From contig JAAXIB010000086.1 in NCBI GenBank assembly GCA_012270585.1, positions 1 to 33,804 on the forward strand: a stretch of DNA of 33,804 nt, written 5' to 3'. Source of the DNA: Nitrospirales bacterium. GTDB taxonomy: Bacteria > Nitrospirota > Nitrospiria > Nitrospirales > UBA8639. The notes beneath the pieces are model-generated. The model made no database searches. It was not told where the DNA came from and saw only the letters and a list, made by a program, of their open reading frames with translations. Every line of letters starts with the position of its first letter. The stretch's first letter is position 1. Shown piece by piece: positions 2,736 to 33,804 of the stretch. Made by a program: the position numbers and the translations under genes.

Positions 2736-2759
2736 TCGACGCTTTTTTGCATGGATGGA

Positions 2760-2794
2760 GGGAGGCTATCGCTTCGATAGCCTCCCTTTTTTTT
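2760..2794 (+). terminator. Rho-independent terminator
   Basis: A 12-base-pair stem with a 3-base loop (GGGAGGCTATCG, CTT, CGATAGCCTCCC) is followed at once by eight T residues at 2787-2794. It sits 24 bases after the secreted-protein stop codon. Confidence 0.92.
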
Positions 2795-3267
2795 GGGGGG
2801 CCTTTTGCCGAAACAAAAGGACCTCGCCAGGAATCTGCTTTTGACTTTCTGTCATCCCTGTATGTGTTCAGCAATTCGTTGACAGATAAAGCCTCCCGAT
2901 TGCTTTTTCTGTCATCCTTGCCCCCTTGCTGTCATTCCCGCGAAAGCGGGAATCCAGGGTCGTTGTTTTTTGTCTTTGCCTTTTCTGTCATCCTTGCGAA
3001 CGCGAGGATCCAGGGTCTTTCTCCTGCAAAGCGGAGGACAAGCAAAGACTCTGGATTCTTTATAGATTGTCTGGATCCCCGATCGAGTCGGGGACAAGCG
3101 TCGGGAATGACAGAAGGAGGCTTTTTCTGTCATCCTTGCGAACGCGAGGATCCAGGGTCTTTCTCCTCGCAACCGCAGAAAAAACAACGACACTGGATCC
3201 TCGATTACAAACGTCAAGGACAGGCTTCGATCGGGAATCCAGGGGTTACGCCTTCGGCTAACCCGAC
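2795..3267. repeat. Cluster of palindromic repeats
   Basis: This gene-free stretch is mostly repeats. Direct-oriented copies of the family beginning GTCATYCYTGCGAA lie at 2931-2959 (perfect arms ATTCCCGC-GAAA-GCGGGAAT), 2987-3015 and 3129-3157. Inverse-oriented remnants (CTGGATTCTT, GGGAATGACAG) lie near 3050-3115. A copy of the CTCGATTACAAA family is near 3197-3222. A different hairpin, GGGTTACGCC-TTC-GGCTAACCC, at 3244-3263 runs into the glutaredoxin stop codon. Its flank GTAGGTCGGGTTAGC (minus strand) is repeated at 11692-11706. The overlapping open frames are translated repeats. Confidence 0.85.
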
Positions 3268-3594
3268 CTACTCCGGCTGAAAGGCTTTTTCCAGGACCGG
3301 TTTCAGTTCCCCCTTCGACTGCATGGGACCGAGGACGTCGGTGTCGCCGTAGAATTGGCCGTTGATGAACACCTTGGGCAGGGTCGGCCAGTTGGTCATT
3401 TGCGTGAGGACTTCGCGTTTTTCCGGATTTTCCAACACGTTGATGATTTCGTAGGGGTATCCGAATTGATCGAAAAACTCCATCGTTTCGACGGTAAAGC
3501 CGCATTGGGGCGCGGTCTTGGTCCCTTTCCCATAAATGAGGATTTTATGTTCTTGCAATTCCCGTTGAATCTCTTCTTCGATGGGATGTGCCAT
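3268..3594 (-). CDS. grxD: Grx4-type monothiol glutaredoxin, CGFT variant
   Basis: The 108-residue protein matches the single-domain monothiol glutaredoxins that hold and transfer [2Fe-2S] clusters with glutathione and BolA partners. The KGTK motif is at 23-26, the active-site cysteine is C31 and the cis-proline segment is WPTLPK. The usual CGFS signature is C-G-F-T here, a conservative Ser-to-Thr change. The C-terminal GGxD-like motif reads YGDTDVL. It lies 14 bases behind bolA on the same strand. An AGGAGG ribosome site overlaps the bolA stop codon (TAGGAGG), so the two are probably cotranscribed and translationally linked. The likely role is iron-sulfur cluster delivery or iron sensing in the cytoplasm. 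Confidence 0.93.
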   Translation of the reverse strand: MAHPIEEEIQRELQEHKILIYGKGTKTAPQCGFTVETMEFFDQFGYPYEIINVLENPEKREVLTQMTNWPTLPKVFINGQFYGDTDVLGPMQSKGELKPVLEKAFQPE

Positions 3595-22302: not shown

Positions 22303-24000
22303 GTGACCCGCCTCACCACTTCTCTCGAATCGACGCTGGCGCATTTGCCCGATCAGCCCGGCGTGTACCTGCTGAAAGGCAAGGGCGGGGAAATCCTCTA
22401 CATCGGAAAAGCCCTGGTGCTGGCGGACCGGGTGCGCTCGTATTTTCAGAAAGGCAGCGACCCGAGTCCCAAGACGCGCGTGTTGACGTCCCTAATCCAG
22501 GATATTGAAACGATCGTTACGCGATCCGAATTGGAAGCCCTCTTACTCGAAAGCAACCTGGTCAAACGTCATCGCCCCCGGTTCAACGTGGTACTTCGCG
22601 ATGACAAGCATTATCCTTTCCTTCGCCTGCCGGTGAAGGAGCCTTTTCCCCGTCTCTCGATTGTGCGTCGCGTGAAGAACGACGGCGCGTTGTATTTCGG
22701 CCCTTACGTGCCCGCGGGCGCGCTTCGGGAAACCCTGAAGGTCATCAAAAAAGTGTTCCCGCTTGCCACGTGCAAGATCGACATCGACGGGACGGCCGAG
22801 CGCGCCTGTCTGGAATTTGAAATCAAGCGGTGCATGGCGCCCTGTACCGGCAACCAGTCGCAGGCAGACTATCATCGCATCGTCGAACAGGTTCGCTGTT
22901 TTCTGGAGGGGCGGGACAAGGAATTGCTGGACGGGTTGCGCAAGGACATGGAAGCGGCCGCCGACCGGGAGGAATTCGAAGAAGCGGCCCGGCTGCGGGA
23001 TCGCATGGCGAGCATCGCCAGGACGTTGGAAAAACAGCGCGTGGCGCAGATAGGCCCCATGGACCAGGATATTATCGGCCTGGCCAGGATGGGCAAGGCG
23101 GCTGATCTGCAACTGCTGTTTGTGCGCGGCGGATTGTTGATCGGCCGCAAGGACTTCTTCTGGGCTGATACGAAAGAGGCTTCGGATGAGGAGTTGATTC
23201 GATCGGCCATTGAGCAGTTCTACAATAAGGACACCCTGCCCCCCAAGGAACTGTTGGTGTCCGAAGCGCTGTCCGACCGGGAATTGATTCAACGCTGGCT
23301 CAGTCAAAAGAAAGGCCGGCGGGTGCGGATCCTGACGCCCGAGCGCGGGGCGAAACGTCAACTGCTCCAGTTAGCCGAAGAAAATGCCGCCGCGGCCATT
23401 GGCGAGCATTTGCGTAACACGGCGCTGGAACACAGGGAGGCCGAAGACTTGCAGCGACTCCTCGGGTTGTCCAGGACGCCGAGCCGGGTGGAAGGGTTTG
23501 ATATTTCCAATACCATGGGCACCCATTCCGTGGCTTCGATGGTGGTGTGGGAAGACGGGAAAATGAAGAAAGCGGATTACCGGCGGTTTCGGATCAGAAC
23601 GGTCGAGGGGGCGAACGATTTTGCCAGCATGCAGGAAGTCGTCAAGCGCCGGTACGGCGGAACCCTCGGGACCCGGACCAAGACAATGTTGCCGCTTCCC
23701 GATCTCATCCTGATTGACGGGGGAGTGGGGCAATTGGGAGCCGCGGTGGATGCGTTGCGTGGCGCCGGTCTCGGTCACCTCCCCATCGTCGGATTAGCCA
23801 AAGCCAAAGGCGAGAAGGAAGAGCGAATCTACGCCCCCGGACATCGCGCCCCACTCATCCTGTCCCCGACGTCCCACGTCTCCCGCCTGGTCCAGCGCAT
23901 CCGGGACGAAGCGCATCGCTTCGCCATTGCCTACCATCGAAAACTCCGCGGCCAGGCCTTCGTCATGCCGCCATCGAAATTGGGCAAAGCCCGCAAATAA
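22303..24000 (+). CDS. uvrC: UvrC excinuclease subunit lacking the C-terminal HhH domain
   Basis: The 565-residue protein has the GIY-YIG nuclease at the N terminus (GVY at 20-22, YIGKA at 33-37, R43). A Cys-containing UvrB-facing segment follows, then the UVR helix (EEFEEAARLRDRM), then the RNase-H-like second nuclease (GFDISNTMGTHSVASMV, DLILIDGGVGQL). It makes the two incisions of nucleotide-excision repair. Normal UvrC is about 610 residues and ends in a tandem helix-hairpin-helix. Here the sequence runs through DEAHRFAIAYHRKLR and stops 17 residues later, with no HhH and none in other frames just downstream. The start is a GTG at 22303. Confidence 0.93.
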   Translation: MTRLTTSLESTLAHLPDQPGVYLLKGKGGEILYIGKALVLADRVRSYFQKGSDPSPKTRVLTSLIQDIETIVTRSELEALLLESNLVKRHRPRFNVVLRDDKHYPFLRLPVKEPFPRLSIVRRVKNDGALYFGPYVPAGALRETLKVIKKVFPLATCKIDIDGTAERACLEFEIKRCMAPCTGNQSQADYHRIVEQVRCFLEGRDKELLDGLRKDMEAAADREEFEEAARLRDRMASIARTLEKQRVAQIGPMDQDIIGLARMGKAADLQLLFVRGGLLIGRKDFFWADTKEASDEELIRSAIEQFYNKDTLPPKELLVSEALSDRELIQRWLSQKKGRRVRILTPERGAKRQLLQLAEENAAAAIGEHLRNTALEHREAEDLQRLLGLSRTPSRVEGFDISNTMGTHSVASMVVWEDGKMKKADYRRFRIRTVEGANDFASMQEVVKRRYGGTLGTRTKTMLPLPDLILIDGGVGQLGAAVDALRGAGLGHLPIVGLAKAKGEKEERIYAPGHRAPLILSPTSHVSRLVQRIRDEAHRFAIAYHRKLRGQAFVMPPSKLGKARK

Positions 24001-24127
24001 GCGGTCCATTGTCCCCCCCCTCACTGAAAGTGTCACAGCGGGCGTCAGACGAGGCGTTGGGAAATGATTTCCGGCGATTCCGAATTGGTTGATTGCTGAA
24101 TCCTGTCAACGAGGGCATAATGCGTTC

Positions 24128-24364
24128 ATGGCAGTACAAATCACCATCAGGGGTGTGCCCGAGGAAGTTCGCGATGAACTCGCAATGCGCGCGGCACTTC
24201 AACGCCAGTCCATGCAGGAATTCCTCCGTTGCGAACTGGCACGTCTCGCGGCATGGCCCTCCGTTGGCGTGTGGCTACAAGCCGTTCGCAATCGCAAGGC
24301 AGAAACGAAAACACGGATCCCACCGTCCCGCATCCTCCGCGTCCGTGACACGGATCGAAAGTGA
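24128..24364 (+). CDS. FitA/VapB-like ribbon-helix-helix antitoxin
   Basis: The 78-residue protein fits the FitA/VapB antitoxin pattern. An N-terminal ribbon-helix-helix (VQITIRGVPEEVRDELAMRAALQRQSMQEFL) should bind DNA. The C-terminal toxin-wrapping part follows the known design (LARLAAWPSVGVWL, RKAETKTRIPPSRILRVRD). The ATG at 24128 fits the family. A CATAAT box lies only six bases before it, with TTGCTG 17 bases further up, so a leaderless transcript is possible. Its stop overlaps the GTG of the truncated toxin (GTGA). All genes to herA run on the same strand. Confidence 0.85.
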   Translation: MAVQITIRGVPEEVRDELAMRAALQRQSMQEFLRCELARLAAWPSVGVWLQAVRNRKAETKTRIPPSRILRVRDTDRK

Positions 24365-24487: not shown

Positions 24488-25666
24488 TTGAATCACGATA
24501 TCAAACTCACAGCGGCAGAGTACCGTCTTCGCAAATGTTTGCTCGGTCTCGTTGAGCAGTTACCCGCCTCACCTCGTACGTTGAGCAAGATGCAAATACG
24601 CGGTCTTCACTCAGGGAAACGGTTGTCCGTCATGGCGACTATGAACGGCTCTTTCGATTGTCATCTCAGGCTTCTGCGTGAACATCTTGCTCATCCTCGG
24701 GAAATTGCTGTTTCCGAGATCAATCCTTCGCTCAGCATCGTCGTAGGGAATACCCAAGACTCCCAGCTCTTCAATGCTGCTTCCCTTCTCTGGTCGGTAC
24801 CGGTGAGCAAGGGGTTCGGACGACGTATACGATACCTTGTCAGGGACAAAAACAATGGCAAACTCATCGGCATCATTGGACTCACGGACCCCGTTTTTAA
24901 CCTCGCGCCACGCGATGCCTGGGTTGGCTGGAATGCCAGTGATCGTGCCGAACGTCTGATTCATGTAATGGATGCCTTTGTACTGGGCGCCTTACCGCCT
25001 TATAGCAAAATTCTTGGCGGCAAACTGGTGGCCCTGTTGGCGACATCCAAAGAAGTGGTCACGAATTTTCACCAAAAATACAGAACCTATGAGGGCATAA
25101 TCAGTAAAAGCAAGAAGGACCCTCGTCTTGTTCTCCTCACAACGTCTTCGGCCCTTGGTCGATCATCGCTCTACAACCGTCTCCGAATTCCGGGGAGTGT
25201 CACATTTCTTACAGATGTTGAAACTGATCGTGTCCCGACGTGGTACACGCAGGGCTATGGACATTTCCATATCCCCGAGGACATGTTTGCAGAACTGCAA
25301 AGGGTCCTCGTTCGACGCAATCATCCTTATGCTAAGGGCAACAGATTTGGTAACGGTCCCAACTGGCGCATACGGGTCATTCGCCAAGCCACCGTGGAAT
25401 TGGGAATTCATACCGAAGTCATTCAACACGGTATTCGTCGCCAAGTGTATGTCATCCCTCTAGCAGACAACACACGTGAGATACTTCTTGGAACGAGAAA
25501 ACGCCCGTCGTATATCACAAAGACAGCCGCAGAAATTGCTGACTACTGGCGTGAAAGATGGGCGATTCCTCGAGCGGAACGACATCCCGCATGGAGGAAC
25601 TGGAACGTAGGCGGAACGATCTCCACCCTCCGCCGTCTTCACGCAATCGCTGAAAGAATAGGGTAG
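24488..25666 (+). CDS. DUF4338 (DruA-family) protein
   Basis: The 392-residue protein matches the DUF4338 family, whose best-known member is DruA of the Druantia type I anti-phage system. Characteristic segments in order are ASLLWSVPVSKGFGRRIRYLVRD (about 97-120), KLIGIIGLTDPVFNLAPRDAWVGWN, YSKILGGKLVALL, LVLLTTSSALGRSSLYNRL (about 216-234) and GYGHFHIPEDMF, with GPNWRIRVIRQA and a C-terminal WRERWAIPRAER. The biochemical role of DUF4338 is not established. No transposase catalytic domain is fused to it. The start used is a TTG at 24488 with TAAGG seven bases upstream. The nurA-like gene follows after seven bases and herA after that, so the three form one transcription unit. Confidence 0.85.
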   Translation: MNHDIKLTAAEYRLRKCLLGLVEQLPASPRTLSKMQIRGLHSGKRLSVMATMNGSFDCHLRLLREHLAHPREIAVSEINPSLSIVVGNTQDSQLFNAASLLWSVPVSKGFGRRIRYLVRDKNNGKLIGIIGLTDPVFNLAPRDAWVGWNASDRAERLIHVMDAFVLGALPPYSKILGGKLVALLATSKEVVTNFHQKYRTYEGIISKSKKDPRLVLLTTSSALGRSSLYNRLRIPGSVTFLTDVETDRVPTWYTQGYGHFHIPEDMFAELQRVLVRRNHPYAKGNRFGNGPNWRIRVIRQATVELGIHTEVIQHGIRRQVYVIPLADNTREILLGTRKRPSYITKTAAEIADYWRERWAIPRAERHPAWRNWNVGGTISTLRRLHAIAERIG

Positions 25667-25673
25667 TGCAAGC

Positions 25674-26837
25674 GTGTCGCTAGCGAATCTCGACAGAGAG
25701 GCACTCCGTAAGAAGGTCATGGAGGCGTATAACGTCGATGATCCTCATCTCCAGCGATTTCGGGGATACGCGCGTCGACTCCGAAACAGCGTGAAACCGC
25801 TTCGTACCTACTCCGTCAACGCAGTCTCATTCGTCTCAGCAGATGGTGGTGACAACCGACTCAGTTTCAATCCAGCGGTTGTCGAACTCATACGTGTCGT
25901 GGATTCACGTGGTAAGGAGTGCGCCCTTGACGCAGTCGCTGGAACTATCGATATCGAAGAATTGGAGGAAAGGGCCAAACTGGAATCAACGCATAATGTC
26001 ACACCCCTCCAACGATTGTCCCAAGACACGGGCAAGACGCTCAAAGAGATGTCCTATCTGATCAGAGGCATTGGGACTCCAGGCAAAAGCACTGGAGCCA
26101 TGCGATGTTACCGGGACATCGTTGAGTGGGCCGTGCTGTACGATCTTGTCGCGAATCCCAGTCTGCAATGGGGAGGTGACACAATTCTGGTTCGAGATGG
26201 TCTGCTTCGAACGAAATCATTCTCACGAGATATGTTCCCTCTCCTGGATCGAAAAATCCACGATGGCATTGCAGCCCACAAGGACAAGAATGTGCAACTG
26301 TCACTTGTAGGTGTCGCCAAGCAAAGCGCCGTGCTCGGGCGCCTCGCCGTTGCTCTGGAGCTTGAGGCCACGTTCCACAAAGACTATCCTTGTTATGTGC
26401 AGGTTGAAGAAGACATTGAAGCCGAGTGCTACAACTTCGACCGCACTTGGCTCCAAACATATGAGACGACCGACGAGGACGACACCGGACGTCGGCTGTA
26501 CCAATCCCTCGGGCGCCTCTATCTCGTGAAATTTGGAGACAGGCCGATGGACCCTGTTTGGCCCGTCGATATAGCCGTATGGCAGGTGGAGCACGCAGAC
26601 CGCATCCTGGGACAATTGACAGTCGATGCGCAGCAGGGCTTTCCCATTCCGGACTATCCCATGTGCATCCAAAGAGCACACGACTTTGCAAAGTTATCCG
26701 GCCTTGAGATTCAGGATCTCCAGGACATGCTTGTTGAGGGGATGTGTGGCAAGCTCACGGCTGAAGAATCTGAGCGCCTGCTTCGCATGAAGTATCTGGG
26801 GCAGACGCTAGCAAATCTGAGATACAAGGAGGCTTGA
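25674..26837 (+). CDS. nurA: NurA-type nuclease
   Basis: The 387-residue protein fits the NurA fold, an RNase-H-like 5' nuclease that works inside the HerA ring during DNA end resection in archaea. The first strand carries the catalytic Asp (FVSADGG, D57). A second acidic strand reads ILVRDGLL (D175), then LVGVAKQSAVL with K216, and FPIPDYPMCIQRAHDFA near the C terminus with H336, like the conserved His segment of archaeal NurA. The start is a GTG seven bases after the DUF4338 stop, with a weak ribosome site. The herA gene begins one base after its stop, and herA's ribosome site lies in its last codons. Codon use is less G+C-rich than in flanking core genes. Confidence 0.85.
   Translation: MSLANLDREALRKKVMEAYNVDDPHLQRFRGYARRLRNSVKPLRTYSVNAVSFVSADGGDNRLSFNPAVVELIRVVDSRGKECALDAVAGTIDIEELEERAKLESTHNVTPLQRLSQDTGKTLKEMSYLIRGIGTPGKSTGAMRCYRDIVEWAVLYDLVANPSLQWGGDTILVRDGLLRTKSFSRDMFPLLDRKIHDGIAAHKDKNVQLSLVGVAKQSAVLGRLAVALELEATFHKDYPCYVQVEEDIEAECYNFDRTWLQTYETTDEDDTGRRLYQSLGRLYLVKFGDRPMDPVWPVDIAVWQVEHADRILGQLTVDAQQGFPIPDYPMCIQRAHDFAKLSGLEIQDLQDMLVEGMCGKLTAEESERLLRMKYLGQTLANLRYKEA
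26826..26832 (+). promoter_or_regulatory. Strong ribosome site that fixes the herA GTG start
   Basis: AAGGAGG lies inside the last codons of nurA, six bases before the GTG at 26839. It supports this GTG as the start of herA and suggests translational coupling of nurA and herA. Confidence 0.8.
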
Positions 26838-26838
26838 A

Positions 26839-28884
26839 GTGCTGTTTGCCAACTCACGAATCGTGGGGACCTTCAAAGGATTCAATGATCGCGGCCTTGA
26901 GTTTGCGGCAGAGATCGTCGCGCCCTATGACGCCGGCATGCTCGACCGTCCTCAGCTCGGTCAGTTCCTCCTCATTGAACTAGCTTCACAGGAAGAAGCA
27001 GCGCTAGGACGCATAACTCGCTTCGTTCCCTCTGGATTATTGGCGACGCCGGAAGGAGAAGACTACGTCAATACAATGCAACGGAGGCAGCAAAACGTCC
27101 CAGAGGACCTGAAGCAGCAGCGGCTGAAGTATCGCGTCCAAGTGAAACTGCTCGGAACGGTTCGTACAAACGATGACGGAATCATCTATGTCCCTTCGCA
27201 ACGCAGGTTGCCGCACCTTGGTGCGCGTGTCGCATTGCCCAGCGACCAAGTTTTGCAGGAACTCTGCAAACTGAGCCGGGGCACCACCGAGTTGGGGGCG
27301 TACGTGTTGGGCGAGTTTGTGTTCTGCGGGGCCGCCCACCAGCAGCGTCAGCCGGAACTAATCTCATTCGATCCCCATCTCCAGGTCACTTTCGATATCA
27401 ACAAACTCGTGTCCAGACGTTCCGTTGTCTTTGCACGGGCAGGCTATGGAAAATCGAATCTCGTCAAGTTCCTGATTGCCGAGTTGTACGAGATGCAGCC
27501 AATGACCGCAAACGATCGCCCAGTCGGTACGCTAATTTTCGATCCCGATGGTGAATATTTTTGGCCCGATCGGGTGAAAGATCGTCCAGGATTGTGCGAC
27601 GTGCCACACTTGAAAGATCAACTCCTCGTATTTACCAACAGGCCAGCTCCAAGTCCATACTATGGCAGTTGGAAGGCCGGTGAAGTGAAACTCGACATCC
27701 GCGACCTCTCTCCACACGATGTGATCAGCATCGCGATTTCTTCCGATCGCCAGACCCAACAGAATGTCCTCAAGCTCAAGAGCGTCTCTCGTGAAAATTG
27801 GCGTAGACTCGTTGATCTGATCTACACCAACGGGTTACAGGCGAGCGATCAGGAAGTCGGCAACTGCCTTGGCTACACCGGTGACCAAATTTCTAAGTCC
27901 GTAGCGGAAATCGCGGCGGCTCGTAGCAACATGTTCGGTGTCGTGCGTACCCTCCATGATCCAGCCAGTCATGTGTTGGCCGGAACACTCAAGGCTCTGG
28001 CCCAAGGAAAGGTCGTCATAATCGATATCAGTCTATTGAGTTCAGGCGCCGGCAACATGCTTGCCGGTCTGTTTCTCCGGCGGATCTTCTCACACAATCA
28101 GGAGCACTTCACAGGCGGACAACCCATTATCCCCGTTGTGGCCATTATAGAGGAAGCGCAAAGCGTTCTTGGTCGAAATCTCGACAACACTAGCCCCTTT
28201 GTCGAATGGGTGAAGGAAGGACGCAAGTACGATCTTGGAGCCATGCTCATCACCCAGCAACCAGGCGCGATGGCACCCGAACTACTTAGCCAAGCGGACA
28301 ATTGGTTTTGTTTCCACTTGCTTTCCGAGGGCGATGCCGGTGTCCTCGGAAAGTACAACTCCCACTATTCATCGGATGTCCTCGCCCACCTTATTGCAGA
28401 ACCTATTCCTGGCAACTGCTATATGTGGAGTGCGCCGCACCAACCTTTCGTGCTTCCCGTTCGACTGAGAGACTTCGGTGAAATTTATGGAGACCAAATA
28501 CGAAAAGAGACAAGTGAACCATCCATCGAAGACACAGGCGCTAAAGAAGTCATCAAAGCGGCGTCAGATGCGATAGCTCACATCAAAGACAAATTGGTGG
28601 AGCAATTGAAGGATAGCAAGACCAAGTACTGGCGTATGCCGAGGAGAACCAGTGAGAAGGAATTGCTTGGGATCAAAGGTGGGCAGTTATACTACCTCAT
28701 CAGAGATAGCAAAAGCCTCGAAGATATCCAGACGGAAGATGAACTGAAACGTCCACTCCTGACATTGTTGCTCGGAGAAGGAGCCCTCCATGTTGTTGAG
28801 CACGATGGTGGGCAGTACTATTGCGCGACCTCCCAGAACTGGGAACTCGCGACAGGAATGAAACCGACGCCCTCAGAACTCTGA
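26839..28884 (+). CDS. herA: HerA-type hexameric DNA translocase ATPase
   Basis: The 681-residue protein has the HerA layout. An N-terminal HAS-barrel-like part (1-175) precedes a FtsK/HerA-type ATPase core. The Walker A motif is AGYGKSN (201-207) with A199 where the first P-loop glycine usually is, and the Walker B motif is VVAIIEEAQ (E438, E439). A polar sensor follows at LITQQPG (471-476), and the HerA-typical ADNWFCFHLLSEGDAGVLGKY segment is at 487-506. A C-terminal extension (about 555-681) is rich in charged helices and may contact a partner. HerA rings pump DNA and activate NurA, whose gene lies one base upstream. HerA-like ATPases also occur in several bacterial defence systems with nuclease or Sir2 partners. 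Confidence 0.9.
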   Translation: MLFANSRIVGTFKGFNDRGLEFAAEIVAPYDAGMLDRPQLGQFLLIELASQEEAALGRITRFVPSGLLATPEGEDYVNTMQRRQQNVPEDLKQQRLKYRVQVKLLGTVRTNDDGIIYVPSQRRLPHLGARVALPSDQVLQELCKLSRGTTELGAYVLGEFVFCGAAHQQRQPELISFDPHLQVTFDINKLVSRRSVVFARAGYGKSNLVKFLIAELYEMQPMTANDRPVGTLIFDPDGEYFWPDRVKDRPGLCDVPHLKDQLLVFTNRPAPSPYYGSWKAGEVKLDIRDLSPHDVISIAISSDRQTQQNVLKLKSVSRENWRRLVDLIYTNGLQASDQEVGNCLGYTGDQISKSVAEIAAARSNMFGVVRTLHDPASHVLAGTLKALAQGKVVIIDISLLSSGAGNMLAGLFLRRIFSHNQEHFTGGQPIIPVVAIIEEAQSVLGRNLDNTSPFVEWVKEGRKYDLGAMLITQQPGAMAPELLSQADNWFCFHLLSEGDAGVLGKYNSHYSSDVLAHLIAEPIPGNCYMWSAPHQPFVLPVRLRDFGEIYGDQIRKETSEPSIEDTGAKEVIKAASDAIAHIKDKLVEQLKDSKTKYWRMPRRTSEKELLGIKGGQLYYLIRDSKSLEDIQTEDELKRPLLTLLLGEGALHVVEHDGGQYYCATSQNWELATGMKPTPSEL

Positions 28885-29011: not shown

Positions 29012-29212
29012 CTAAACCGTCTCGAATTCCAAGGCGGAGAGATTCAGATTGGAGGAGCGTTTCGAAAGATGGAGCATTTCCACGCCCACCACTTCGTTCG
29101 TCTCGTTGTAATCGAGCACCACTCCCGGTGAGACCTCTTCGGACTCGACGATGGCAGAGTCGTCGAGGCGCAGGTAGAGCGCATCGGCTTCCTTATCGAC
29201 GTGCAGTTTCAT
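29012..29212 (-). CDS. DUF2283 protein, probable antitoxin
   Basis: The 66-residue protein matches the DUF2283 pattern: MKLHVDKEADALYLRLDD, SEEVSPGVVLDYNE and VVGVEMLHLSKR. Proteins of this family often follow a small DUF4258 gene, and the pair is usually regarded as toxin-antitoxin-like. Its start overlaps the end of the DUF4258 gene by four bases. The downstream 127 bases to the herA stop hold no recognisable gene or terminator. Confidence 0.85.
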   Translation of the reverse strand: MKLHVDKEADALYLRLDDSAIVESEEVSPGVVLDYNETNEVVGVEMLHLSKRSSNLNLSALEFETV

Positions 29213-29493
29213 AATTTTCCCTTCATATTGCGGTCAAAGAATACGCTCACCACCCGCCAGGGCGCAACACGAGTGTTGACGGCAACGCGTAAGACGCGGT
29301 TGTCCTGTTCTGGAATGCGACGAAAAAAGCGTTCGACTGCAGGGTCGTCCGGGTCGGGCTCGCGCAAACCTGGCTCCGTTACCACCCATTCAACCCACTC
29401 CATCGGTATTGCCCGTTCCGTCATTGCATCAATTGCGTGCTTGGTAAATTCCAGCTTTGCGGATTCGGATGGCATGCCCTCACTCTTCTTCAC
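29209..29493 (-). CDS. DUF4258 protein, probable RelE/BrnT-like toxin
   Basis: The protein of up to 94 residues fits DUF4258, a small group with a RelE/BrnT-like fold. Segments seen are FTKHAIDAMTERAIPMEWVEWVV, RFFRRIPEQDNRVLRVAVN and WRVVSVFFDR. The family is thought to act as RNA-directed toxin, but activity is not well established. An alternative start at Met7 is possible. It overlaps the DUF2283 gene by four bases and lies 67 bases behind the PIN gene on the same strand. Confidence 0.82.
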   Translation of the reverse strand: MKKSEGMPSESAKLEFTKHAIDAMTERAIPMEWVEWVVTEPGLREPDPDDPAVERFFRRIPEQDNRVLRVAVNTRVAPWRVVSVFFDRNMKGKL

Positions 29494-29560
29494 CGATCAG
29501 ATTGTCGCTCCGCAGTCTGTCGAGGATCATCGGCATGCGAAATTTTCTGGCTCTTGCCGT

Positions 29561-29959
29561 CTACAGACGCCGCACGTCGGGCAAAGCGGCCATCTTTCGA
29601 TCTAGCGTCAGCACTTCCAGGCCTGCACGGGAATAGTCATCGGCGATGAGACGGTCGAACAGGCCTGGGCCGCCTGAGGCTGAAAGGGCTTCAATGACGG
29701 CGCGTCCGTTGAGAGGGGTGACCAGGCCGCTGGTCAGCACGTCTCGGAGACCAGTACGGGCGTCGGAGCTGGTGATGCCGTAATGATGCATCAAGGCGGC
29801 GTAGGTTTCACCTATGGCCTGGTTGGACGCGAATATCTCGTACCCCCGTTCCTCCATCAAAGCGACAAGACGGCGCACACAGTATTCGAAGTCGCCTTGC
29901 GGCTCCCGCGCGACTAGCCTGACTAGGACTGAGGTGTCAACTCCGTATTGAAGGGCCAT
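29561..29959 (-). CDS. vapC: PIN-domain (VapC-like) ribonuclease toxin
   Basis: The 132-residue protein is a full-length PIN domain. The first acidic residue is in YGVDTSVLVRL (D8), a Glu is in IGETYAAL, and the last acidic pair is in FDRLIADDYSRAG with LTLDRKMAAL. PIN toxins cut RNA, often tRNA or rRNA. The start MALQYGVDTS at 29959 is chosen by family match; the frame stays open to 30082. It overlaps the AbrB-like gene by 23 bases. In contrast to the fragment at 24361, all core acidic residues are kept. Confidence 0.88.
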   Translation of the reverse strand: MALQYGVDTSVLVRLVAREPQGDFEYCVRRLVALMEERGYEIFASNQAIGETYAALMHHYGITSSDARTGLRDVLTSGLVTPLNGRAVIEALSASGGPGLFDRLIADDYSRAGLEVLTLDRKMAALPDVRRL

Positions 29960-30188
29960 ACCCTTGCTCCCGTTGGTCCCGGAACTTGCGGATGTCGAAC
30001 GGCGGATGTCCGGATGGAATCTTGTCTCTGAGCGTCCCCAATTTCGAATAGTCGATCCGCCGCGGCCGCAGAATGAAGCCATCGGAGCTTTCTTGCAGTT
30101 CGAGTTGGTCTCCTGGGCCTACACCCATTGCATCCAACACCCGCGCCGGGAAGGTGACTTGGCGTTTTGATGTAATCTTGACGATCAT
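29937..30188 (-). CDS. AbrB/MazE-type antitoxin
   Basis: The 83-residue protein begins with a SpoVT/AbrB DNA-binding domain: MIVKITSKRQVTFPARVLDAMGVGPGDQLELQ. A toxin-binding tail follows that includes PPFDIRKFRDQ. It should pair with the PIN protein downstream and repress the promoter at 30208-30236. AAGGAGG lies just before the ATG at 30188; the in-frame extension to 30236 lacks a family match. Confidence 0.9.
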   Translation of the reverse strand: MIVKITSKRQVTFPARVLDAMGVGPGDQLELQESSDGFILRPRRIDYSKLGTLRDKIPSGHPPFDIRKFRDQREQGYGPSIRS

Positions 30189-30207
30189 GGGAATCCTCCT
30201 TACAAAA

Positions 30208-30236
30208 ATCTTATATGAGTAAGGCGACAGAATCAA
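30208..30236 (-). promoter_or_regulatory. Promoter of the AbrB/PIN operon
   Basis: On the minus strand TTGATT (30236-30231) and TAAGAT (30213-30208) are separated by 17 bases. Both match the sigma70 consensus at four of six positions. The site lies about 20 bases before the AbrB ATG. Confidence 0.5.
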
Positions 30237-30407: not shown

Positions 30408-33038
30408 ATGTCCAAATTCTACGATCACCAGGCCATTGAAACGAAATGGCAAGCCTACTGGCGCGAGCACCAGCCTTTTCGTTCTGACATCGACCCCGCC
30501 AAACCCAAGTTTTACGTCCTCGACATGTTCCCGTACCCGTCGGGAGCCGGACTCCACGTGGGCCATCCCAAGGGCTATATAGCGACCGATATCATCGCCC
30601 GCTACAAACGGATGCGGGGCTGGAACGTGCTGCATCCCATGGGATGGGACGCCTTCGGCCTTCCCGCGGAACAATACGCGATTGAAACCGGGACCCATCC
30701 GCGGGAGACCACCAAACGGAATATTGAAAACTTCAAGCGGCAATTCCAGGCCTTGGGCATGGATTACGACTGGTCACGGGAAATCGACACCACGGATCCC
30801 CGGTACGTGCGATGGACGCAATGGATTTTTCGGAAACTCTATGAAAAGGGACTGGCGTATCTGGCGGAAGTCCCGGTGAATTGGTGCCCGGCCCTGGGCA
30901 CCGTGTTGGCCAACGAGGAAGTGATCGACGGCGAGAGCGAGCGCGGCGGGCATCCGGTTGTGCGGGTACCCATGCGGCAGTGGATGCTGCGCATCACGGC
31001 CTATGCCGAGCGGTTGATCGACGACTTGGCGTTGGTGGATTGGCCGGAGTCCATCAAGCGGATGCAGCGGGAGTGGGTCGGCCGTTCGGAAGGCGCCAGA
31101 ATTTTCTTTGAGGTCGCGGGACATACGCCACGATTGATCGAGGTGTTTACCACTCGTCCCGACACCCTGTTCGGGGCCACGTATATGGTGCTGGCGCCGG
31201 AGCATTCGTTGGTGACGACCATCACGACCCCCGAGCAACGTCCGGCGGTGGAAGCCTACGTCGAAGAGGTATCCCGCCGGAGCGAACGGGCGCGCGTGGC
31301 CGAACTGGGTGAGAAGACCGGGGTCTTCACCGGAGCATTTGCCGTGCATCCGGTCACGGGCAAGCCTATTCCGATCTGGATTGCGGATTACGTGTTGGCG
31401 ACCTACGGAACCGGCGCGATCATGGCGGTGCCGGGGCATGACACGCGGGATTATGCCTTTGCGCATCAGTTTCACTTGCCGATTGTCGAAGTTGTCTCCG
31501 GCGGCGATCTTTCAATCGCGGCGTATACCGGCGACGGCACGAACGTGAATTCCGACTTCTTGGACGGATTAGCCACCCCCGAGGCCAAGACCCGCATGTG
31601 CGACTGGCTGGCGCAACACGGCAAGGGTGAGCGGACCGTGAACTATAAACTGCGCGATTGGCTCTTCAGCCGGCAGCGGTATTGGGGAGAGCCGTTTCCC
31701 GTGCTGCACCTTGAAGACGGCACGGCGAAGCTCGTTCCGGAATCGGAGTTGCCGGTGGTGCTTCCCGAGTTGGAGGATTTTCGCCCGAGCGGGGAGTTCG
31801 AAACACCCCTGGCTCGCGTCCGCGATTGGGTGGAAGTGACGGATTCCGAGACCCGGCAAAAGGCCCTGCGTGACACCAATACCATGCCCCAGTGGGCCGG
31901 AAGTTGTTGGTATTACCTTCGCTTTTGTGATCCTCACAATAGCCGGGAGCCGTGGTCCAAGGAAGCCGAACAGTATTGGATGCCGGTCGATTTGTACGTG
32001 GGCGGAGCGGAGCACGCCGTCCTGCATCTGCTCTATGCACGGTTTTGGCATAAGGTGCTGTATGACCTCGGGCTGGTGCATACGCCCGAGCCGTTTCAGA
32101 AATTGCTGAACCCGGGCATGATCCTGGGGTACAGCTATCGCTACTTCGACAATAATCTCTCCGATGATCCTTCCTTCGCGGCGCAAGCGTATCCCGCGTC
32201 GGAGGTGCGTTTTGCTCACGACACCCCGGTTCACAAAAAAACAGGAGAGGAAGTCAAAGCCCGATGGGTGGCTTCACCGGACGTGCGGTGGTCGGAGGAG
32301 GGAACGCCGTTGCATCCGACGTTTGACGGGTTGGTGTTGGAAGAAGTCACGGAGAAAATGTCGAAGAGCCGCGGCAACGTGGTGAATCCGGATGAGATCA
32401 TTGCCGAATACGGGACCGATGCGTTGCGGCTGTATGAAATGTTCATGGGGCCGTTGGACAAAGGCGCGCCCTGGTCACCCGAATCCATCCCGGGCGTGGC
32501 GCGGTTTCTGCAGCGCGCCTATCGTCTTGTGTTGGGTGAACAGGAGCGGGTGCCGGTGGTCGAGGGGAAGGGGACGCTCGACCAGGCCCGGCTCACGGCC
32601 CGGACGGTTCAGGGCGTGACGCAGGACCTCGAGGAGATGAGTTTCAATACGGCCATCTCGAAACTGATGGTCTTTGTGCGGGATATTACCAAAGATGGCC
32701 CCCTTCCTCGTGCGTCGGCCCAAGCCTTTGTCGTATTGCTGTCGCCGTTTGCCCCACACCTGGCGGAAGAATTATGGGAAGAGTTGGGAGGCGTGCCAAG
32801 TCTCGCGCACCAGGCCTGGCCGTCGTTCGATCCCGCCCTGGTGGTGCACGAGGAATTGACGATCCCCCTTCAGATCAACGGCAAGTTGCGCAGCAAGATT
32901 CAGGTGCCGGCCGACGCGAAGAAGGACGAGATTCTCGAACTCGCGCACGCGGACAAAAAATTGGGGGAATGGTTACAGGGGACCACGCCTCGAAAAGTGA
33001 TTTACGTCGAAAAGAAGTTGGTCAATTTCGTGGTTTGA
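30408..33038 (+). CDS. leuS: Leucyl-tRNA synthetase
   Basis: The 876-residue class I synthetase charges tRNA-Leu. The HIGH motif reads HVGH at residues 50-53 and the KMSKS motif is exact at 650-654. Between them lie the zinc-like insert, an editing (CP1) domain with [19 protein letters not shown] and [19 protein letters not shown], and the LeuRS-specific [10 protein letters not shown] and NNLSDDP-type segments. The anticodon-binding and C-terminal domains follow to [16 protein letters not shown]. Length and motifs are those of bacterial LeuRS. The ATG at 30408 matches the family start ([11 protein letters not shown]). A palindromic repeat and then lptE follow. Confidence 0.97.
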
Positions 33039-33040
33039 GT

Positions 33041-33126
33041 TCCCTCTCCCCTTGGGAGAGAGCCTGCCCCGGACCCTGTCCTCGACATTTGTAATCGGGG
33101 ATTGATCCGGGGGTGCAGGGTGAGGG
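33041..33126. repeat. Composite repeat between leuS and lptE
   Basis: The outer part is the CCCTCTCCC family (TCCCTCTCCCCTTGGGAGAG, then CCTGCCCCGGA, later ATCCGGGGG and GGGTGAGGG), as at 19132-19205. A copy of the second family (GTCCTCGACATTTGTAATCG) sits inside at about 33078-33099. It looks like one repeat nested within another. Confidence 0.75.
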
Positions 33127-33148
33127 CAAAAAAAGGGAAATTCACCTG

Positions 33149-33804
33149 ATGAACAGAATCGTCTTGGCTCTGGTTTGCGTCTCGATAGTGCTCGTCGTTT
33201 TTCCGGGATGCGGCTACAGGTTTTCCGTGGAAGGCCCGGGCCCGCGAATCGGGGGCGGGCTTGGTCCTGAGCACGAGGGACCGCAGGTACGATTGGTCAT
33301 TCGAGACCTGCTCAACCGCACGTTCCAGAGCAATTTGGAATTTGCGTATACGAGATACATGCGGGAACAATTTGCCGTCAGCAGCGGGGCGCAAATCGTG
33401 GCGGAAGACGGCCAAACCGATTACGTCATGACGGGCGAGATCGTCTCGGTCACGATCCCGCCACTCACGTTTTCGTCCAGTCAAATGCGAGAACGCCGGG
33501 TGAACGTCGTGGTGCGCGTCACGGTAGCGCATCGAGAGACCGGCGAGAATCTCTGGGCGGAAACCGCCACGGGTACCGGAGAATTTTTTGTGAATCGTGA
33601 GCCCGACGTCGAAGCCCGCCAGGATCAAATTCAGTTTAACCGGGTCCTGCAAGACCGGGCCTTGGAGCAGGCCGGCCAGGATGCCGCGGAAATGTTGGCC
33701 GCAGCCTTCTGGCACGCCAGGGACCAGGGTATCTTTTCAGCTACCGGCGTCCCATCCCCTTCTTCCTCATCCGACAAGAACCCTCTCCCCTGGAGGGTGT
33801 ACAG
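33149..33804 (+). CDS. lptE: LptE-type LPS-assembly lipoprotein, partial
   Basis: A 218-codon frame runs off the window edge, so the C terminus is unknown. The first 20 residues form a lipoprotein signal peptide ending VFPGC, with C21 as the lipid-modified cysteine, followed by the GYRF typical of LptE. The following domain (VRLVIRDLLNRTFQSNLEFAYTRYMREQF, DYVMTGEIVSVTI, VVVRVTVAHRETGENLW) fits the LptE fold. LptE plugs the LptD barrel and is needed to insert LPS in the outer membrane. The order leuS-lptE is also found in E. coli. The last codons (from about 33780) appear to enter another repeat copy. Confidence 0.85.
   Translation, partial: MNRIVLALVCVSIVLVVFPGCGYRFSVEGPGPRIGGGLGPEHEGPQVRLVIRDLLNRTFQSNLEFAYTRYMREQFAVSSGAQIVAEDGQTDYVMTGEIVSVTIPPLTFSSSQMRERRVNVVVRVTVAHRETGENLWAETATGTGEFFVNREPDVEARQDQIQFNRVLQDRALEQAGQDAAEMLAAAFWHARDQGIFSATGVPSPSSSSDKNPLPWRVY
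33780..33804. repeat. Partial CCCTCTCCC-type repeat at the window edge
   Basis: CCCTCTCCCCTGGAGGG begins a further copy of the family, here inside the reading frame of lptE. It is cut by the end of the window. Confidence 0.5.

Follow-up and report, generated by a model that had tools for sequence, protein, structure and literature searches.

Contig JAAXIB010000086.1 of a Nitrospirales bacterium (assembly GCA_012270585.1) carries a 4.4-kb triplet of genes, druA, nurA, and herA, within the 33,804 nucleotides (nt) that were analyzed as a whole and are called the window here. All three open reading frames (ORFs) lie on the plus strand, with 7 nt between druA and nurA and 1 nt between nurA and herA (Table 1). 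ORF analysis agrees with the initial annotation, which was made from the DNA letters alone, on the three genes, their order and spacing, and the ribosome site of herA inside nurA. The position of this AAGGAGG site suggests that the translation of nurA and herA is coupled. PADLOC labels DruA and HerA, whereas ORF2 is covered by none of its models.

Table 1. Positions of the triplet, the segment that contains it, and the genes that anchor the site (window coordinates).
Feature	Position	Strand	Details
druA (DUF4338/PF14236)	24488..25666	+	392 amino acids (aa), TTG start; GNAT-like predicted fold
Predicted NurA/TdpB-like nuclease gene	25674..26837	+	387 aa, GTG start; candidate catalytic residues D57, E151, D175 (D/E), H336
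herA, HerA/TdpA-like translocase ATPase	26839..28884	+	681 aa, GTG start; ARAGYGKSN (Walker A), IIEEAQ (Walker B)
herA Shine-Dalgarno AAGGAGG inside the nurA end	26826..26832	+	6 nt ahead of the GTG start
Inserted accessory segment	24393..29520 (approximate edges)		~5.1 kb, missing at the same site in close relatives
uvrC	22303..24000	+	Conserved left anchor of the site; outside the system
PIN toxin/MazE-like antitoxin pair	29561..30236	-	Conserved right anchor; outside the system

The first and third genes are readily assigned. ORF1 belongs to the DruA family (DUF4338), matching Pfam PF14236 over residues 62-335 at 266.6 bits (cut-off 27 bits; E=3e-79). The accession PF13020 initially suggested for DUF4338 is wrong. 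ORF3 contains the HerA central domain (PF01935, 96.3 bits, E=4e-27) with conserved GYGKSN and EEAQ motifs and therefore has both hallmarks of the family, a HerA/DUF87 ATPase domain and the Walker A and B motifs. The best solved match of the HerA profile is TdpA (E=5e-31), and HERA (4d2i) is found at E=3e-16. TdpA and TdpB form the restriction part of a phosphorothioation-linked defense system, in which TdpC is the phosphorothioation enzyme.

ORF2 is more divergent. Alone, it matches no Pfam family in a scan of the window protein, and a search of the window's own genome with Pfam NurA (PF09376) gave no match. A five-sequence profile of the ORF2 family has TdpB as its top solved chain (8wet_G, E=5.6e-5), and the AlphaFold2 model (pLDDT 72, pTM 0.76) retrieves TdpB with Foldseek at E=1.8e-11, followed by a distant fold match to the Argonaute group (E=0.02). 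A divergent homologue at locus L253 matches Pfam NurA above the cut-off (E=1.7e-7) and is also retrieved by the hidden Markov model of the window NurA family (E=2.7e-17). Because L253 matches both, it ties the window family to Pfam NurA. Residues D57, E151, and H336 are invariant across the 14-member family. Thus, two of the three residues initially listed for this NurA-like protein, D57 and H336, hold throughout, whereas position 175 is occupied by Asp in most members and by Glu in L023, L025, and L026. Together, the profile and model matches predict a NurA/TdpB-like nuclease.

The triplet recurs as a unit. A NurA profile scan of 84,980 species genomes yielded 80 loci, of which 14 encode a NurA 48-96% identical to that of the window. 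These 14 are spread over Nitrospira, Latescibacterota, Eisenbacteria, Phycisphaerae, Firmicutes (including Syntrophomonadaceae and Clostridiales), Gammaproteobacteria, Chitinophagaceae, Bacteroidetes, Acidobacteria, and others. druA is immediately upstream or downstream of nurA-herA in 13 of the 13 resolvable loci at or above 48% NurA identity; the contig of the fourteenth (L022) stops within herA, and this locus was left out. The DruA–NurA-HerA pairing holds INDEPENDENTLY of that family in a PF14236 sample, which was drawn independently of NurA from ~1,400 genomes of six phyla (those besides Nitrospirota inferred). Full-length DruAs, covering ~275 or more of the 297 positions, numbered 16 after the window and the loci already found via NurA were left out, and 13 are accompanied by a NurA-HerA pair. 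In ten of these 13, the pair belongs to a second family (type B), and in three it is of the window type or a divergent relative (L248, L251, and L253). Two more (L247 and L249) have DruE nearby and are Druantia. These counts exclude the initial concern that the three genes might rarely be adjacent elsewhere. At L124 and L125, druA and nurA are separated by a single gene from another family, and at L125 herA is set apart by further genes.

By BLAST, the NurA of type B loci is not similar to that of the window, and similarity between the two HerAs is confined to short stretches around the ATPase motifs, while the DruAs of type B loci are 31-41% identical to those of the window type. One type B NurA scores above the Pfam NurA cut-off. 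The adjacency of DruA and type B NurA is not a background effect because, of 176 Nitrospirota genomes sampled, only 2 were found to encode this NurA. Relatives of the window NurA were absent from plasmids and from a scan of viral contigs. L253:5673-10469 (genome G1413) is a divergent nurA-herA-druA operon beside a RusA gene.

In the remaining NurA loci (~35% identity), DruA never occurs, and most have a DNA methyltransferase gene adjoining or near nurA-herA. The DruA-bearing and methyltransferase-bearing groups form separate clades in both the HerA tree and the concatenated NurA+HerA tree. L010:6100-12927, L011:11716-18602, and most of L027-L092 represent a widespread candidate NurA-HerA-methyltransferase system, only parts of which are labeled by PADLOC.

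The triplet is sporadic and horizontally acquired. uvrC, the left anchor, is found in 13 of 14 congeneric genomes, and in two relatives (G202, locus L257; G387, locus L260) the aligned flanks, from the FitA-like gene to the PIN/MazE pair, are separated by only ~49 and 135 nt, compared with ~5.1 kb in the window. The GC content of the triplet is 52.7%, versus ~60% for uvrC and leuS. One genome (G303) has the triplet at the same site, and another (G323) has a broken copy; in the latter (L012:7611-10850), druA and nurA are frame-broken and other ORFs lie between nurA and the herA remnant. The NurA occurs in 6 of 396 Nitrospirota genomes, three of which have a methyltransferase instead of DruA. 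A uniformly core, vertically inherited unit, which the initial annotation had named as a refuting outcome, is excluded.

DruA has moved independently of its partners. With DruA groups defined by gene context before tree building, Druantia DruAs are nested among type A DruAs. A single clade is rejected by the approximately unbiased (AU) test for the upstream-form type A DruAs (p=0.0055) as well as for all type A DruAs (p=0.0058), while the NurA-HerA of the same type A loci form one clade with 100/100 support. Therefore, DruA has been exchanged among effector cores, Druantia included. Plasmid DruAs 41-47% identical to the window DruA sit in DruE-bearing loci. Two further proposals were dropped: that the gene order nurA-herA-druA evolved from within the clade with druA-nurA-herA (constrained tree not rejected, p=0.25) and that type B DruAs had two origins (one clade not rejected, p=0.37). 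Residues invariant across 32 DruAs, including a GAxPPYxxLLGGKL-type segment (~residues 167-180), are identical in every context. Because these residues are the same whatever the partner, DruA seems to have one activity common to all contexts. At L017:8812-18316 and L264:939-14765, DruA-NurA-HerA is convergent with, and 8 nt from, a DruE-like helicase gene. Genes encoding a DrmMI-like methylase and a DpdE/DrmD-like helicase come next, and the whole may be a hybrid system.

Structural and profile evidence bears on what this activity may be. The AlphaFold2 model of the window DruA (pLDDT 79.9, pTM 0.82) mostly retrieves GNAT acetyltransferases with Foldseek (E ~0.02, probabilities up to 0.97), which gives moderate confidence in a GNAT-like fold. 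DUF4338 has also been called a GNAT domain in the literature (PMC10853773). At L219, a DDE transposase gene adjoins the gene for a DruA-family protein of 316 residues, which matches Pfam DruA (E=1e-43) and, over the same stretch, Pfam Mom (E=1e-4, below the cut-off for a match). In HHalign, 34 short DruAs and 11 Mom proteins match at 96% (E=2e-9, 163 co-linear columns), where pairwise E-values are not database-corrected and the relation of DruA to Mom is transitive via the short relatives. The score was 8.7% with Mom reversed and no more than 0.2% with Mom shuffled. With a wider DruA set, the match to Mom is 93%, compared with 2.7% or less for eleven other GNAT groups; between short and full-length DruAs it is 99.4%. 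Thus, at the level of sequence profiles, the DruA family appears detectably related to Mom as part of one superfamily, through short transposon-linked members. Mom-family GNATs transfer an acyl group to adenine in DNA (PMC7824862), and in other systems a GNAT next to HerA has been suggested to act in self-marking (PMC12839542).

Short (~300 aa) PF14236 loci (L219:1444-3497, L178, L222, and others) are the most Mom-like members of the family, and some lie beside DDE_Tnp_1 or UPF0236 genes. A genome may have up to 11 PF14236 matches, longer ORFs counted. DruA relatives also occur in cyanophages and pelagiphages (L132:2704-3825 and L133:3677-4975), at L132 beside clamp-loader genes, and one phage relative is annotated as 'methylcarbamoylase mom'.

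The preferred reading, held at a probability of roughly 55%, is that the triplet is a compact, mobile, restriction-modification (RM)-like operon in which DruA marks self DNA and HerA-NurA destroys unmarked DNA. As a Mom-related GNAT enzyme, DruA would place an acyl-type mark on bases of the host DNA. The HerA ring would pump DNA, and NurA, bound to HerA, would cut the DNA as it passes. Marked host DNA would be spared and unmarked phage or plasmid DNA destroyed. The methyltransferase-bearing sister clade, and Tdp with TdpC, would then represent the same design with other marking enzymes. Of the initial proposal, a recurrent, horizontally moving unit of three genes that include a translocase and a nuclease is supported. 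The role then given to DruA, recognition or regulation, fits less well than DNA modification, as the evidence points to a Mom-related GNAT enzyme. A more ambitious version, for which the odds fall somewhat short of even, holds that DruA is a Mom-like DNA acyltransferase and that the triplet is a distinct, widespread RM class in which a base mark other than a methyl group restrains the translocating HerA-NurA nuclease. On this view, HerA-NurA cores would carry exchangeable modules for self-marking, namely DruA, DNA methyltransferases, or phosphorothioation enzymes.

Several observations weigh against self-marking by DruA. The full-length DruA profile has no significant match to Mom in HHalign (0.6%), and the window DruA does not match Pfam Mom (PF25680). 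Compared with viral structures, the DruA model finds a Mom protein only weakly (E=0.038, probability 0.99). One of the 16 sampled full-length DruAs (L252) has neither a NurA-HerA pair nor DruE. GNAT domains in DndF fusions, moreover, have been read as a backup effector acting on proteins (PMC10853773).

This last proposal favors the main rival, in which the GNAT DruA serves as an effector or sensor and acylates protein or tRNA in abortive infection. HerA-NurA would then sense or degrade the DNA of the invader, without any self-marking of DNA. Such a role would suit the weak Foldseek matches of DruA, among them a GNAT toxin and acetyltransferases of proteins and tRNA. However, the DruA-family profile is similar to Mom but to none of the other GNATs tried, the sister clade has a DNA methyltransferase in place of DruA, and relatives of DruA are found next to transposases and close to genes for phage DNA replication. 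On balance, an acylated protein or tRNA is the unlikely target. Less probable still is a modification-dependent, type IV-like system, in which DruA marks invader DNA or replication intermediates and HerA-NurA attacks the marked DNA. The same anatomy would serve this scheme, and Mom-family enzymes do modify DNA (PMC7824862), but a self-encoded targeting mark would endanger the host. The methyltransferase of the sister clade and the precedent of TdpAB also suggest protection, not targeting.

Neither housekeeping repair nor plain Druantia was accepted as the main explanation of a unit that is sporadic, inserted, scattered, and without DruB-DruE. A repair operon with DruA as a regulator could draw on DNA-end resection by HerA-NurA in archaea and on its study in Deinococcus (PMC9960219), yet it is very improbable for genes found so sporadically in Nitrospirota, inserted where congeners are empty, present in many phyla, and decayed in one relative. 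Ordinary or degraded Druantia type I is the least credible, despite the DruA held in common and exchanged with Druantia and the DruE-like gene that abuts the L017 triplet, since DruB-DruE are absent from most triplet loci and the missing DruE refutes it for the window. As initially noted, no DruB-DruE gene, the DruE helicase included, is present in the window, where the flanks hold uvrC, leuS, and toxin-antitoxin-like genes. According to a review (PMC12904381), phage can escape type I Druantia through site-specific methylation, as would be expected of a Druantia that is sensitive to modification.

The surroundings of the triplet are variable. In the window, the insert is flanked by a FitA-like antitoxin gene without an adjacent toxin (24089-24364) and, at 29209-30236, by a DUF4258 gene and the PIN/MazE-like pair. 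Congeners differ in the stretch downstream of uvrC, which may be an insertion hotspot. Recognizable defense genes lie by several triplet loci, although these neighbors were picked by eye and not weighed against a random background. They include a Dsr1-like SIR2 protein and a DNA methyltransferase (L014), GmrSD-like proteins (L016 and L023), a type IIG RM (L023), Cas6 (L025), an HEC-03B-like ATPase (L248), and the DruE, DrmMI-like, and DpdE/DrmD-like neighbors of L017. A type B DruA-NurA-HerA operon (L245:6322-15112) lies directly beside the TniQ, TniB, and TnsA genes of a Tn7-like transposon. Elsewhere in the window, similar peptides (such as RESGNPGS and PAKAGIQ) recur in ORF translations at ~10-354, 2747-3280, and 33002-33715, which points to interspersed intergenic repeats.

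No description of the triplet was found in the literature searched (DruA/NurA/HerA, DUF4338/HerA, and TdpAB/TdpC), a search with most subscription journals and preprints outside it, so that an earlier description is possible; nor did the literature found assign a function to DruA. The triplet would be of a known kind, a HerA-nuclease defense with an attached modification enzyme, and the new part is the reading of DruA. It suggests what this unexplained defense protein does. In the sampled phyla, most full-length DruAs accompany NurA-HerA and not Druantia, so automated labels such as 'Druantia anti-phage system protein DruA' would misassign them. If a DruA-dependent DNA adduct exists, acyl-type base marking would join the known self-marks of bacterial immunity, and modification modules would be swappable on one motor-nuclease core.

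Among known systems, Druantia type I (DruABCDE) has DruA in common with the triplet, which lacks DruB, DruC, DruD, and the DruE helicase and has NurA-HerA as its effector core. The archaeal HerA-NurA repair complex and the systems that pair HerA with Sir2 or DUF4297 effectors share with it a HerA ring and a nuclease or effector partner. However, these use other effector families or serve in repair, and they are not known to include DruA. Phage Mu Mom and the predicted momylation systems share the GNAT superfamily and profile-level similarity with the DruA family, but Mu Mom is a phage enzyme, and the predicted jumbo-phage Mom systems have restriction endonuclease-fold nucleases, not HerA-NurA (PMC7824862). 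The NurA-HerA-methyltransferase loci (L009-L011 and L027-L092), with HerA 41-44% identical to that of the window, have a DNA methyltransferase in place of DruA; L010 and L011 add a ParA-like ATPase (KGGVGR-type) and an MqsA-like gene. TdpAB(C) (PDB 8wet and 8wfd) provides the nearest solved structures for both the window NurA and HerA, and in the two systems a nuclease-translocase pair, with the homologues of TdpA and TdpB adjacent, lies next to one further enzyme. In the window, this enzyme is DruA, predicted to be a Mom-related GNAT, and not TdpC, which a Pfam scan did not place in the operon or among the flanking FitA-like, DUF4258, PIN, and MazE-like genes. Although its similarity to TdpAB is remote, the window pair resembles TdpAB more than it does the archaeal repair HerA-NurA.

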